34,330 nucleotides of DNA from an uncultured delta proteobacterium. Lineage in GTDB: Bacteria; Myxococcota_A; Polyangia; Haliangiales; Haliangiaceae. Shown here one piece after another: positions 5,147 through 34,069 of this stretch (position 1 is its first letter; every line of letters starts with the position of its first letter). The DNA lies in contig CAADGB010000534.1 of the NCBI GenBank assembly GCA_900696455.1, forward strand, positions 1-34,330. The letters run 5' to 3'. A program made the translations under genes and the position numbers. The notes beneath the pieces were generated by a model. It searched no databases, was not told the DNA's origin, and saw only the letters and a list, made by a program, of their open reading frames with translations.

Positions 5147-5176
5147 AGGATAGGTTGCCCACGAAAGCCGCGTCAA
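5147..5176 (-). promoter_or_regulatory. Sigma70-like promoter for the PP2C operon
   Basis: On the minus strand TTGACG (5171-5176) is followed after 18 bases by TATCCT (5147-5152). Initiation near 5140 would give a leader of about 30 bases before the ATG at 5108, with no clear Shine-Dalgarno sequence. It lies in the shared region with divergent cinA. Confidence 0.5.
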
Positions 5177-5214
5177 CCCAACCGCCCGGATTCGCAAGCG
5201 GTCGCCCCAGGCGG

Positions 5215-5220
5215 TAGAGT
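5215..5220 (+). promoter_or_regulatory. TAGAGT -10 box immediately before cinA
   Basis: GGTAGAGT ends 6 bases before the GTG start, the spacing expected for a leaderless transcript. The 19 bases at 5211-5229 match 17 of 19 of those at the nagZ start (22745-22763). No Shine-Dalgarno sequence is present. Confidence 0.5.
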
Positions 5221-5226
5221 GCGGCC

Positions 5227-6486
5227 GTGCTGGCCGAGATCTTGACCATCGGCGACGAGCTCACCCGCGGCGAGATCGTCGACACCAACTCGGCGTGGCT
5301 GGCCGGTCGGCTGTGGGATCTCGACGTCACCGTACGCTGGATGACGAGCTGCCGCGACGACGAGGCCGACCTGCGCGCCGCGCTCGCCGCCGCCTGCGCC
5401 CGCGTCGATCTGGTCCTCACCTCCGGCGGCCTGGGGCCGACCGAGGACGATCTGACCTGCGACGTGGTCGCCGCCGCCGCCGGGGTCCCGGTCGCCATCG
5501 ACGAGGGCGCGCGCGCCCGCCTCGAGCAGTTCCTGTCGTCGCGCGGACGGCCGGTGTCGGAGGTGAACCTGCGCCAGGCCCGGGTCCCGGCCGGGGCCCG
5601 CGTCCACGCCAGCCCGGTCGGGCTGGCCCCGGGGTTCGAGGTCGCGCTCGGCGGGGTGCCGGTGGTGTGCCTGCCCGGCGTCCCGCGCGAGCTCCACGCC
5701 ATCTGGGAGGCCGGGCTGGCGGCGCGGGTCGACGAGCTGCGCCGCGCCCACGGCGCCGCGCCCCGCATCGCCCGCCGCGTCTACCGGCTGTTCGGCTGCG
5801 GCGAGTCCCAGGTCTCGGAGGCGCTGCGCGGCCTGGTCGACGACGTGGCCGGGGCGTCGCTCCACTACCAGGTCAAGTTCCCCGAGGTCCTGGTCAAGCT
5901 GGTCGTCCGGGATCCGGACGCAGCGGCGGCGGCCGAGCGGCTGGCCGCCCTCGACGCCGGCCTCGCCGCCCGGGTCGGGGCCTGGACCTACGGCACCGGC
6001 GACGAGCCGCTGCCGCTGGTGGTGGGGCGGGCGCTCCTGGCCGGCGGGCACCGGGTGGCGGTGGCCGAGTCGTGCACCGCCGGCCTGGTGGGGGCGCTCC
6101 TCACCGAGCTCCCCGGGGCGTCGGGCTACTTCGTCGGCGGCGCCATCGCCTACGCCGACGACGAGAAGGTGCGGCAGCTCGACGTCTCGCCGGCGACCCT
6201 GGGCGCGCACGGGGCGGTGAGCGAGGAGGTGGTGCGGGAGATGGCGCGCGGAGCGCGGGCGCGCACCGGCGCCGGGATCGGGATCGCGGTGTCGGGGATC
6301 GCCGGCCCCGGCGGCGGCACGCCGGCCAAGCCGGTGGGGACGGTGTGGCTCGCCGTCGACGGCCCGGGCGCCGGCCACCGCACCTTCCGCATGCGCTGGC
6401 CGGGGCCGCGCGACCAGGTGCGGACGCTGGCGGCGTGGTGGGCGCTCGAGCTGGTGCGCCAGGCGATCGGAGGCGCTCGTGCCTGA
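5227..6486 (+). CDS. cinA: CinA: competence/damage-inducible protein with NMN deamidase domain
   Basis: Two-domain nucleotide-cleanup enzyme. The N-terminal MoCF-like (COG1058) domain hydrolyses ADP-ribose-type compounds in characterised homologs; the C-terminal PncC domain deamidates nicotinamide mononucleotide in pyridine nucleotide salvage. Seen in the 419-aa product: [20 protein letters not shown] at the start, [14 protein letters not shown] (about 65-78), [11 protein letters not shown], and C-terminally [10 protein letters not shown] (Ser/Cys active region) plus [20 protein letters not shown]. Length is typical of full-length CinA. The GTG at 5227 begins right at the domain; there is no Shine-Dalgarno sequence but a TAGAGT box 6 bases upstream. 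It overlaps thpR by 8 bases and precedes recA, matching the cinA-(thpR)-recA order known in several bacteria. Confidence 0.96.
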
Positions 6487-18872: not shown

Positions 18873-18878
18873 TAGCTT
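18873..18878 (+). promoter_or_regulatory. TAGCTT -10 box immediately before a lipoprotein gene
   Basis: GAGGTAGCTT ends 8 bases before the ATG at 18887. There is no Shine-Dalgarno sequence in between (CCCATCTC). The arrangement matches the leaderless-type boxes before cinA and nagZ. Confidence 0.4.
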
Positions 18879-18886
18879 CCCATCTC

Positions 18887-19843
18887 ATGGCCTTGGACCT
18901 CGCGCCGCGTCGCCCCGTTGCCTGGCTCGTGGTGGTCGTGGGCGCCGCCGGCGGCGCGTGCGGCCCGTCGGTGCGGCCGGAGGCGCCGGGCGACGAGCCC
19001 ACGCCGTCGACGGTCAGCACCCGACCGCCGCCCCTGTCGGCGGGGCGGTCGGCGCTGGTCGGCGAGCTGTGCCCGCAGGGCGCGGGCGGCCGGCCGGCGG
19101 TGGCGCCCCTGGCCCTGCGCGCGGTGTCGTGGACCAGCGACCGCGAGGAGCTGGTGTCGATCCTGGCCCGCGGGTCGGCGGCCCAGTTCACGGTGCACGC
19201 CGTCGACGGTCGCCGGGCCGGCACGTTCTCCGCCATCGGCACCGCCGACGTCGGCGGCAACGAGGTCGCGATCGGCTCCTACGTCGGCGCGCCGCCGTGC
19301 TCGCGGCCGGCCGCCGCCGTCGGCGGCGAGGTCACCGGCGATGCGGCCTGCCTCCAGCACCAGAAGGGGTGCGGGCTGGCGGTCGCGGCGGTGGGGGCGC
19401 CGGGCGGCGCCTTCGCCGAGGCCGCGCTGGAGTCGCCGGAGCTGGCGCTCGGGGTGGTCACCGGCGGCGCGTGCCGGAGCGGCGAGGTCCTCGCCGTCGA
19501 CGTCGATCGCGACGGCGTGGTCGAGGTGTTCCCGCTGGGGGCGTTCGTCGACGCCGTGCGGGCGCCGGCCGAGGAGGTCAGCGCGGTGTCGATGGTCGCG
19601 CCGGCGTGCGCGCCGGCGTTCGCGCTCCACGGGCTGGCGCCGCCGCCGGCGCCGGGCGTGGTCATGGACGGCAAGCACAAGGTCGAGCTCGACGTCCTCG
19701 GCGTCCTCGACGTCGACGGTGACGGCCGCCACGAGCTGGTGGTGGCCTATCGCTACGTCGAGGGCCGCACGATCGCCGTCTACAGCGCGATGAGCACGGC
19801 GGCGCGCCTCGAGCTGGTGGGCGAGCTCGTGCCCTGGCCCTGA
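18887..19843 (+). CDS. Probable lipoprotein with Asp-rich calcium-loop-like motifs
   Basis: A 318-aa protein with a hydrophobic N-terminus and AGGAC at Cys25, giving a weak lipobox with Gly at -3, followed by a Pro/Thr-rich linker. Two segments resemble EF-hand/FG-GAP calcium loops: DVDRDGVVEVF (about 205) and DVDGDGRHELVVAY (about 277), the latter typical of integrin-like repeat proteins. Paired Cys residues are scattered through the chain (CPQG, CSRP, CLQHQKGC, CRSG, CAPAF). I do not recognise a named family. It is divergent from the outer-membrane barrel gene and convergent with the single-TM protein gene. A TAGCTT box 8 bases before the ATG and the absence of a ribosome-binding site suggest a leaderless message. 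Confidence 0.7.
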   Translation: MALDLAPRRPVAWLVVVVGAAGGACGPSVRPEAPGDEPTPSTVSTRPPPLSAGRSALVGELCPQGAGGRPAVAPLALRAVSWTSDREELVSILARGSAAQFTVHAVDGRRAGTFSAIGTADVGGNEVAIGSYVGAPPCSRPAAAVGGEVTGDAACLQHQKGCGLAVAAVGAPGGAFAEAALESPELALGVVTGGACRSGEVLAVDVDRDGVVEVFPLGAFVDAVRAPAEEVSAVSMVAPACAPAFALHGLAPPPAPGVVMDGKHKVELDVLGVLDVDGDGRHELVVAYRYVEGRTIAVYSAMSTAARLELVGELVPWP

Positions 19844-22666: not shown

Positions 22667-22733
22667 GTGTGATTCCTCCACACCCTCTGCGCCGAGGGCG
22701 CGTCGACGCGATCGCCGGGTGATTCCTGCACAC
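22667..22733. promoter_or_regulatory. Twin palindromic sites upstream of nagZ
   Basis: GTGATTCCTCCACAC (22669-22683) recurs as GTGATTCCTGCACAC (22719-22733), 14 of 15 identical and exactly 50 bases apart. The first copy extends to the palindrome GTGTG-N7-CACAC (22667-22683). Their location 28-95 bases before the nagZ start and the dyad symmetry suggest a pair of operators. The rest of the 22500-22760 gap shows only a weak 5-bp GCCCG/CGGGC hairpin (22546-22559) after the MopE-like stop. Confidence 0.5.
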
Positions 22734-22748
22734 GCCCGACCCACGCGG

Positions 22749-22754
22749 TAGACT
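22749..22754 (+). promoter_or_regulatory. TAGACT -10 box immediately before nagZ
   Basis: GCGGTAGACT ends 6 bases before the GTG at 22761, with no Shine-Dalgarno sequence. It is almost identical to the cinA start region (17 of 19 bases). Confidence 0.5.
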
Positions 22755-22760
22755 GCGGGC

Positions 22761-23891
22761 GTGGCGCACTCCCTTGGCGACGACGTCGGTCAGGTCCTCT
22801 GGGTCGGCTTCCACGGCACGACCGTGCCCGACCCGCTGCGGGCGTGGATCGCCGGTGGGCAGGTCGGCGCGGTCGTGGTGTTCAAGCGCAACCTGGTGAT
22901 CCAGGTCGTCGACGGCCCGGTCCCTCAGGAGGTGGTGGACCTCGAGGCCCTGGTGGCGCTCAACCGCGCGCTGCACGCCGCGGCGCCGGCCGGCGCGCCG
23001 CTCCTGGTCGCGGTCGATCAGGAGGGCGGCGTGGTGCAGCGGGTGCGGGCGCCCGCCACCCAGTGGCCGCCGATGCTGTGCCTCGACGGCCACGGCGCGC
23101 CCGCCGACGAGGAGCTGGCGGAGGCGGTCGGCCTGGCGCTCGGCCGCGAGCTGGCCGCGCTGGGCTTCGACGTCGACTTCGCGCCGGTGCTCGACGTCCA
23201 CACCAACGACGCCAACCCGATCATCGGCGACCGCGCCTTCGGCCGCGATCCCGAGCCGGCCGCGCGCCGCGCCCTGGCCCTCGCCGCCGGCCTGGCCCGG
23301 GGCGGTGTCCTGGCCTGCGGCAAGCACTTCCCCGGTCACGGCGACACCGCCACCGACAGCCACCTCGAGCTGCCGCGGCTCGAGCACGGCTGGGAGCGGC
23401 TCGAGGCCATCGAGCTGGTGCCGTTCCGCCGCGCCGCCCAGGCCGGGCTGCCGATGATCATGACCGCGCACGTCGTCTTCGCGGCGCTCGACGCGACCCA
23501 GCCCGCGACCCTGTCGCCGCAGGTGATCGACGGCCTCCTCCGCCGCACCCTCGGCTACCGCGGCGTGATCGTCTCCGACGATCTCGACATGCGGGCGATC
23601 GCCGATCACGTCGGCATCGGCGACGCCGCGGTGCGCGCGATCGCCGCCGGCTGCGACGCGCTGCTCCTGTGCCGCGACGTCGGCCACCAGCGCGAGGCCC
23701 GGGACGCGCTCCTCGCCGCCGGCGCGCGCGACCCCGCGCTCGCGGCCCGCCTGGCCGAGGCCGCGGCCCGGGTGCGGGCGATGAAGGCGGCGCACGCCGC
23801 CGCCCGCGACGCCGCGCCGGCCCCCGGCCTCGACGTGGTCGGCGCGCTCGCCCACCGCCGCCTCGCCGATCGCCTGGCCGGCCGCGCCTGA
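22761..23891 (+). CDS. nagZ: Beta-N-acetylhexosaminidase NagZ-like (GH3)
   Basis: Glycoside hydrolase family 3 enzyme that removes N-acetylglucosamine from muropeptides during cell-wall recycling; cytosolic, with no signal peptide. The 376-aa product has VAVDQEGGVVQRV (83-95), the GH3 NagZ-specific loop KHFPGHGDT (188-196) with Asp199-His201 as the acid/base pair, MTAHVVF, and VSDDLDM (271-277) carrying the Asp nucleophile. VDFAPVLDV and NPIIGDRAFG are also family-typical. Length matches single-domain NagZ plus a short Ala-rich tail. GTG 22761 starts directly at the domain, behind a TAGACT box and two operator-like repeats, suggesting regulated and perhaps leaderless expression. No other recycling genes are in the window. 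Confidence 0.93.
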   Translation: MAHSLGDDVGQVLWVGFHGTTVPDPLRAWIAGGQVGAVVVFKRNLVIQVVDGPVPQEVVDLEALVALNRALHAAAPAGAPLLVAVDQEGGVVQRVRAPATQWPPMLCLDGHGAPADEELAEAVGLALGRELAALGFDVDFAPVLDVHTNDANPIIGDRAFGRDPEPAARRALALAAGLARGGVLACGKHFPGHGDTATDSHLELPRLEHGWERLEAIELVPFRRAAQAGLPMIMTAHVVFAALDATQPATLSPQVIDGLLRRTLGYRGVIVSDDLDMRAIADHVGIGDAAVRAIAAGCDALLLCRDVGHQREARDALLAAGARDPALAARLAEAAARVRAMKAAHAAARDAAPAPGLDVVGALAHRRLADRLAGRA

Positions 23892-33348: not shown

Positions 33349-33354
33349 TATAAC
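33349..33354 (+). promoter_or_regulatory. TATAAC -10 box immediately before the ECF sigma gene
   Basis: GGGGTATAAC ends 7 bases before the GTG at 33362. There is no Shine-Dalgarno sequence, so a leaderless transcript is plausible. The box is also the loop of the palindrome CCGGGGTATAACCCCGG (33344-33360). Confidence 0.45.
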
Positions 33355-33361
33355 CCCGGCC

Positions 33362-34069
33362 GTGACCAAGCGCGCCCACGAGGCACGTTCGCCGGTCGCG
33401 CCCGCGACGGGGGGCGCGCCGGACGACCGCGAGCTGGTGGTCCGCGCCCAGAAGGGCGACCGCGACGCGTTCCGCGTGCTGTTCGAGCGCTACAGCCGCC
33501 GCGCCTATTCCCTCGCCTTCGGCATCGTCCGGCACGCCGACGACGCCCTCGACGTGGTCCAGGACGCGTTCATCAAGGCCCACCGCCACCTCGACAAGTT
33601 CGAGGGGCAGGCCAGCTTCTACACCTGGCTCTACCGGATCGTCATGAACCTGGCGATCGACCACCTGCGCAAGCACCGGCGCCAGCGCGTGGTCGACTTC
33701 CCCGACGCCGGCGAGACCCTCGACGAGGGGGCGCTGGGCGAGGATTCACTAATCCCTCGGATTATTGGAGGAAATCCCGGGCGGGCGCTGCTCGACCGGG
33801 AGATCCGCGACCGCATCGCCCAGGCCCTGGACGAGCTCTCCGACAACCACCGCGCCGTCCTGGTGATGCGGGAGCTGGAGGGGCTCTCGTACGAGGAGAT
33901 GGCCCAGGCCATGGGGTGCAGCAAGGGCACCATCATGTCCCGCCTGTTCCATGCCCGGCGCAACATGCAGAAGCGGCTGCTGGATCTCTACGATCGCCCG
34001 GCGAATCTCGCCCCTTCCGACGAACCTGATCGCGGCGTTGAATCAGGGACCGACGATCACTCGTCATAG
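33362..34069 (+). CDS. ECF-type RNA polymerase sigma factor (RpoE-like)
   Basis: A 235-aa sigma factor of the extracytoplasmic-function group. Region 2 (about 25-108) contains [20 protein letters not shown] and [22 protein letters not shown]. Region 4 (about 153-207) contains [20 protein letters not shown], then [28 protein letters not shown], the -35-binding helix-turn-helix. The linker (112-150) is unusually encoded: residues 128-139 use GAT TCA CTA ATC CCT CGG ATT ATT GGA GGA AAT CCC, many of them rare in this GC-rich genome. The GTG at 33362 is chosen for the TATAAC box 7 bases upstream and the reasonable N-terminus. A probable anti-sigma gene follows after 39 bases. The divergent five-gene envelope operon is a possible target, which is inference. 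Confidence 0.93.
33742..33777 (+). other. AT-rich four-arm structure inside the ECF sigma gene
   Basis: Arms GGATT (33742-33746), AATCC (33751-33755), GGATT (33759-33763) and AATCC (33773-33777) alternate and can pair 1-2, 2-3, 3-4 or 1-4. They lie in the linker between sigma regions 2 and 4, in a run of rare codons. Confidence 0.6.

Follow-up and report, generated by a model that had tools for sequence, protein, structure and literature searches.

A TAnnnT box directly upstream of start codons and probably leaderless genes in a Kofleriaceae-like myxobacterial genome

Described leaderless systems and the DNA compared with them

Of 33 delta-proteobacterial genomes surveyed by Zheng et al. (2011), 8 were predicted to contain leaderless genes, at a share of 15.8% of genes on average and a range of 5.7–20.6% (PMC3160421). 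Among the examples listed for Streptomyces coelicolor, which have documented transcription starts, TAGCGT or TAGGTT stands 6–7 bases before ATG or GTG (PMC3160421, Table 1). In Deinococcus-Thermus, a TANNNT motif adjoins ORFs with a spacing requirement and gives leaderless messages, with GGAG as a second motif; the former has been tested by experiment and concerns about 30% of ORFs on phylum average (PMC12340547). The words myxo, Sorangium and Haliangium are absent from the main text of PMC3160421, its supplement aside, and no paper devoted to myxobacterial leaderless genes was among the literature matches listed. Since delta-proteobacterial cases were predicted in 2011, the leaderless class described here has precedents in its group.

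The window analysed here is an entire contig of 34,330 bases, belonging to an assembly of 7.98 Mb in 554 contigs (95% complete, G+C 74%). Its CinA protein matched 20 loci with 53–81% identity in Myxococcales, Kofleriaceae and other deltaproteobacterial assemblies, and therefore the earlier label “myxobacterial” holds, with the taxonomy derived from these matches and from the kinship labels of the genomes rather than from a formal classification. In many genes of this organism the promoter appears to lie directly against the start codon, and the message probably starts where the protein starts. The common sign of these genes is a TAnnnT box, and the number of bases between it and the start codon is called the gap; the main class was counted at gap 6–9.

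The TA-like (Pribnow-box) genes of Zheng et al. resemble those found here, with the box just before the start and no Shine-Dalgarno sequence, and the share of the box class among all called genes with upstream sequence (139 of 968, or 14%) falls inside the delta-proteobacterial range given in PMC3160421; what is added to that work is the Kofleriaceae-like genomes and the footprints across species. The layout is nearly identical to that of S. coelicolor, likewise an organism of high G+C but of a different phylum, whose starts are documented (PMC3160421), whereas the starts given here are deduced from sequence. The TANNNT motif, the spacing and GGAG are shared with Deinococcus-Thermus (PMC12340547), from which our case differs in its lower share, its phylum and in being known from sequence alone.

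The boxes of the window and their footprints in relatives

The original prediction described a box recurring at five starts, at two of them with variation, 6–8 bases before the start codon. Direct reading of the coordinates confirms TAnnnT at this distance for four of them. In cinA (5227–6486, plus strand; Pfam CinA, 3.9e-50; upstream regions of relatives), which is predicted to be leaderless, TAGAGT at 5215–5220 is followed after 6 bases by GTG 5227. The predicted leaderless nagZ-like gene of glycosyl hydrolase family 3 (22761–23891, plus strand; Pfam Glyco_hydro_3, 5.6e-74) has TAGACT at 22749–22754, 6 bases before GTG 22761. TAGCTT at 18873–18878 (plus strand) precedes by 8 bases the ATG 18887 of a probably leaderless gene of unknown function (18887–19843), for which the Pfam match is sub-threshold only. 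On the minus strand, TATAGT at 1552–1557 lies 7 bases before ATG 1544 of xseB (1302–1544), encoding the exonuclease VII small subunit (Pfam Exonuc_VII_S, 7.2e-16) and predicted to be leaderless as well. The fifth site, upstream of a possibly leaderless sigma-70 family (ECF) gene (33362–34069, plus strand, GTG start; Pfam Sigma70_r2, 6.3e-21), departs from the pattern: the box at 33349–33354, 7 bases before GTG 33362, is TATAAC, with C in place of T at box position 6, and hence TAnnnT failed there. A variant of the same type, TACAAC, occurs on the minus strand at 888–893, 7 bases upstream of GTG 880 of a polyprenyl synthetase gene, with a weak score.

The near-identity of the cinA and nagZ start regions, to which the original prediction drew attention, was counted correctly (17 of 19 bases), while its significance did not stand. 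Fifty gap-6 sites taken from the genome’s own DNA form 1225 pairs, of which 2 share at least 17 bases, and when the columns of these sites were shuffled, at least one pair at 17 or more matches arose in 56% of 300 shuffles. Such similarity is expected because of the shared box and G+C-rich filler, and the agreement carries no extra weight.

Inspection by eye revealed no good −35 at the cinA and nagZ sites. A GTCAAC block upstream of cinA was weighed as the cinA −35 and dismissed: it stands at differing distances from the box in different relatives, and on the minus strand it reads as TTGACG, 18 bases from TATCCT, resembling the leadered promoter of the divergent PP2C gene. The element at 5147–5176 (minus strand: TTGACG, 18 bases, TATCCT, then 38 bases to ATG 5108 of the PP2C phosphatase gene) is likely to be this leadered promoter; it shares one intergenic region with the cinA box. 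Of 20 relatives, 13 have its GTCAA core at a distance of up to 60 bases from the cinA start. Upstream of nagZ, GTGATTCCT(C/G)CACAC occurs in two copies (22669–22683 and 22719–22733) exactly 50 bases apart; the second overlaps the place where a −35 for the nagZ box would lie, so that a regulator site is possible. The related loci L135 and L139 have GTGAT(T/C)TGCCAGT at a similar place.

Conservation was assessed by counting exact TAnnnT at gap 6–9 in relatives, any in-frame start near the aligned one being allowed, and the controls were the same counts at gaps moved by 6 and by 12 bases. Start offsets of up to 15 codons in single rows are possibly due to chance and were left out of use. The box was present in 15 of 20 relatives for cinA (controls 0 and 0), in 20 of 27 usable relatives for nagZ (controls 1 and 0; 2 of 29 loci unusable), in 14 of 25 usable relatives for xseB (controls 0 and 0; 2 of 27 unusable) and in 12 of 14 usable relatives for the 18887 gene (controls 3 and 1; 5 of 19 unusable). 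By kinship, it occurs inside the family in 17 of 19 nagZ loci, 13 of 15 xseB loci and 12 of 14 loci of the 18887 gene; outside the family the numbers are 3 of 8 and 1 of 10 for nagZ and xseB, and the 18887 gene has no usable relative there. The footprint, as read from these alignments, is firm inside the family and weakens outside it. In the nagZ loci L134–L136 (81% identity) TAGACT and gap 6 are retained while the spacer letters vary, and in relatives where the nagZ start is −2 to +4 codons off the aligned place, the box keeps the same gap from the shifted start.

Thus four of the five named sites are conserved, and the ECF sigma gene is the exception, having TAnnnT at gap 6–9 in 1 of 19 relatives (controls 1 and 0). 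Exact TATAAC is nevertheless found upstream of this gene in 12 of 19 relatives, in 9 of 19 at gap 6–9 (counted without the shifted-gap control), and in L228, L229 and L233 it is present with the start further off. We read this TATAAC as a conserved promoter with a variable leader length, and are less sure that the ECF sigma gene is leaderless in this genome.

An effect on start calling, also raised in the original prediction, is illustrated by two of the five window genes, at which a motif-free caller chose other starts. Coding score alone gives 1553 for xseB and 18929 for the 18887 gene, whereas the box and the relatives favour 1544 and 18887, respectively.

Frequency of the box across the genome and related genomes

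At the level of simple patterns, GGTAnnnT followed by 3–14 bases and RTG occurs 619 times in the genome, compared with 326 occurrences of the reversed pattern. For GGTAnnnTN6RTG the numbers are 139 in the genome, 25 for the reversed pattern and 15 with a gap of 15 bases in the same phase. Part of the preference for GG before the box comes from selection by this search pattern, and the letters at that place are less marked in the congener.

For the gene-level count, 976 genes were called on 80 pieces (1.247 Mb) of the own genome with a home-made scorer, which covers about one-sixth of the draft assembly gene by gene. Calling used codon usage alone, with no motif information, and was chosen in order to keep start bias out. 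Starts preceded by 50 or more intergenic bases were termed intergenic (n = 602), and those less than 30 bases behind a same-strand gene were termed close, or operon-internal (n = 242). TAnnnT at gap 6–9 was concentrated at starts that lead a transcription unit, being found in 108 of the 602 intergenic starts as compared with 11 of the 242 close ones, against a background of about 1.4 per position at gaps 14–35; for gaps 5 to 11 the numbers of genes are 4, 51, 25, 18, 14, 4 and 4. The proportion at gap 6–9 was 11 of 32 in contigs 1–19, taken blindly, 30 of 226 in contigs from the listing of the gap 3–14 pattern, 65 of 329 in contigs from the gap-6 search, which is biased to gap 6, and 2 of 15 among the window genes.

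In the congener (G084) the box at gap 6–9 precedes 29 of 167 intergenic starts, and in a more distant genome of the same class (G211) 7 of 48; both genomes were known beforehand for an excess of the pattern, and their stretches were picked independently of it. Gap 6 is the mode in the own genome and in the congener. Taken together, these two have the box at 137 of 769 intergenic starts, compared with a mean of 7.3 and a maximum of 15 in 200 shuffles, and at 18 of 18,783 internal in-frame RTG codons. The original prediction had named a lack of genome-wide enrichment at this distance as its refutation; the count, run on part of the genome, did not refute it and gave a sharp peak at gap 6–9 in two genomes.

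Several forms differing from TAnnnT at one base are also in excess at gap 6–9 (observed/expected): TAnnnC (22/8.2), TAnnnG (20/7.5), TAnnnA (15/4.5), CAnnnT (32/17.1) and GAnnnT (36/24.5), while at the same gaps no excess was seen for TTnnnT (5/8.6), TCnnnT (16/23.6), TGnnnT (21/19.5) and AAnnnT (7/4.7). A separate genome-wide TATAAC class was considered and dropped, TANAAC at gap 6–9 being found in 3 of 769 starts (0.1 expected), which is too few. In genes without the exact box (n = 632), TTG occurs at spacers 17, 18 and 19 in 20, 14 and 9 cases, and at other spacers in 0–8, which points to further, degenerate boxes. Because of this signal and the excess of some one-off boxes, 18% of intergenic starts is probably the minimum for the box class; as a rough estimate, the true share may be 20–25%.

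To see how far the pattern spreads, we used counts at gap 6 and gap 15 copied by hand for 62 of 283 genomes, those of the same class or nearer. Across the phylum the reversed-pattern control was replaced by the gap of 15 bases in the same phase because the former is too composition-sensitive. A gap-6 excess with p < 1e-4 was observed in 21 of the 62 genomes, which as relatives are non-independent samples, and 4 of the 62 have a ratio of 1 or less. The window’s genus stands out, with 522 occurrences at gap 6 and 70 at gap 15 in three genomes including the own one. Because a pattern with GG is found more readily in G+C-rich lineages, a low ratio elsewhere does not show that the class is absent there.

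The nature of the box and its consequences

The absence of a clear Shine-Dalgarno sequence at the box genes, part of the original prediction, is seen in most of the set: the Shine-Dalgarno core is present in 10 of 116 box genes (gap 5–10) versus 122 of 486 others in the own genome, and in 1 of 29 versus 35 of 138 in the congener. A TTGACA-like hexamer (at least 4 of 6 matches) occurs at a spacer of 17 in 16 of 137 box genes, a weak but sharply placed signal, given that each of the other 23 spacers tried (8 to 31) has it in 0–6. Owing to the missing Shine-Dalgarno sequence and the weak −35 at this spacer, the boxes look like sigma-70-type −10 elements. In E. coli-type promoters the −10 hexamer occupies −12 to −7; a gap of 6 would thus bring +1 onto the start codon, which makes leaderless messages much the best interpretation. 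We consider it highly probable that the main (sigma-70-type) RNA polymerase uses the boxes as −10 elements and that +1 coincides with the first start-codon base.

The closest competitor to leaderless messages accepts a real −10 box and supposes very short leaders: in many genes transcription would start 1–4 bases to either side of the start codon, giving some messages a tiny leader and making others miss the start. Start selection by the polymerase does vary by a few bases, and gaps 7–9 are common (57 of 108); yet in both genomes gap 6 is the commonest, and 135 of 137 box genes begin with RTG, which fits a purine at +1. TTG starts are rarer among box genes (2 of 137 versus 31 of 632 others), which points the same way, though the cases are few. 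We regard short leaders as a general explanation as unlikely.

The two remaining explanations dispense with a promoter or with the signal itself. AT-rich biases at about −20 to −10 before starts are described in some other phyla (PMC5397173), so the box might be imagined as an AT-rich signal at the start site, translational or of another kind, such as a binding site for S1 or a stretch free of structure; this is very improbable in view of the −35-like hexamer at spacer 17 and of the operon-internal genes, which need translation and no promoter, and yet have the box in just 11 of 242 cases. Still more remote is the idea of chance matches in a G+C-rich genome, selected by eye: chance suffices for a 17 of 19 agreement between two sites such as those of cinA and nagZ, and the ECF sigma site lies outside TAnnnT, but the enrichment at both pattern and gene level, plus the footprints in relatives, speaks against it. 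Over the first 40 bases, the box genes show no weakening of predicted RNA structure (−10.8) relative to the Shine-Dalgarno genes (−7.8), and no special downstream composition of the box genes was seen in the own genome and the congener.

A loss of the anti-Shine-Dalgarno sequence was discarded as an explanation, since its normal form, GGATCACCTCCTT, has two copies in the genome; the longer GGATCACCTCCTTTC has zero occurrences there. At close same-strand starts a strong GGAG/GAGG peak stands 5–8 bases upstream. The presence of the anti-Shine-Dalgarno sequence and the Shine-Dalgarno peaks, clearest in operons, suggest that the leaderless and Shine-Dalgarno modes coexist.

Under the leaderless reading, the main RNA polymerase would bind the box and begin transcription where the start codon begins; the resulting message would open with AUG or GUG, and the ribosome would initiate at its 5' end without Shine-Dalgarno contact. 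Genes leading a unit would use either this mode or an ordinary leader, and operon-internal genes mostly the Shine-Dalgarno sequence. What the sequence shows is the box with its spacing, enrichment and conservation, its link to a missing Shine-Dalgarno sequence and the weak −35; which sigma factor acts, where the message begins and its translation from that end are inferred.

For Kofleriaceae-like myxobacteria in general, the balance of probability is somewhat in favour of a picture in which about one-fifth to one-quarter of unit-leading genes are leaderless and promoter and start codon co-evolve, the start moving with the −10 box. The landing place of the promoter would then fix the N-termini, many of which would be misplaced by start calling that lacks a promoter model. 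Leaderless use at such a level bears on start calling and N-terminal signals, as well as on predictions of translation during stress or in the presence of antibiotics that leave leaderless initiation intact, and it would extend a well-studied mode of expression to a large and poorly cultured branch.
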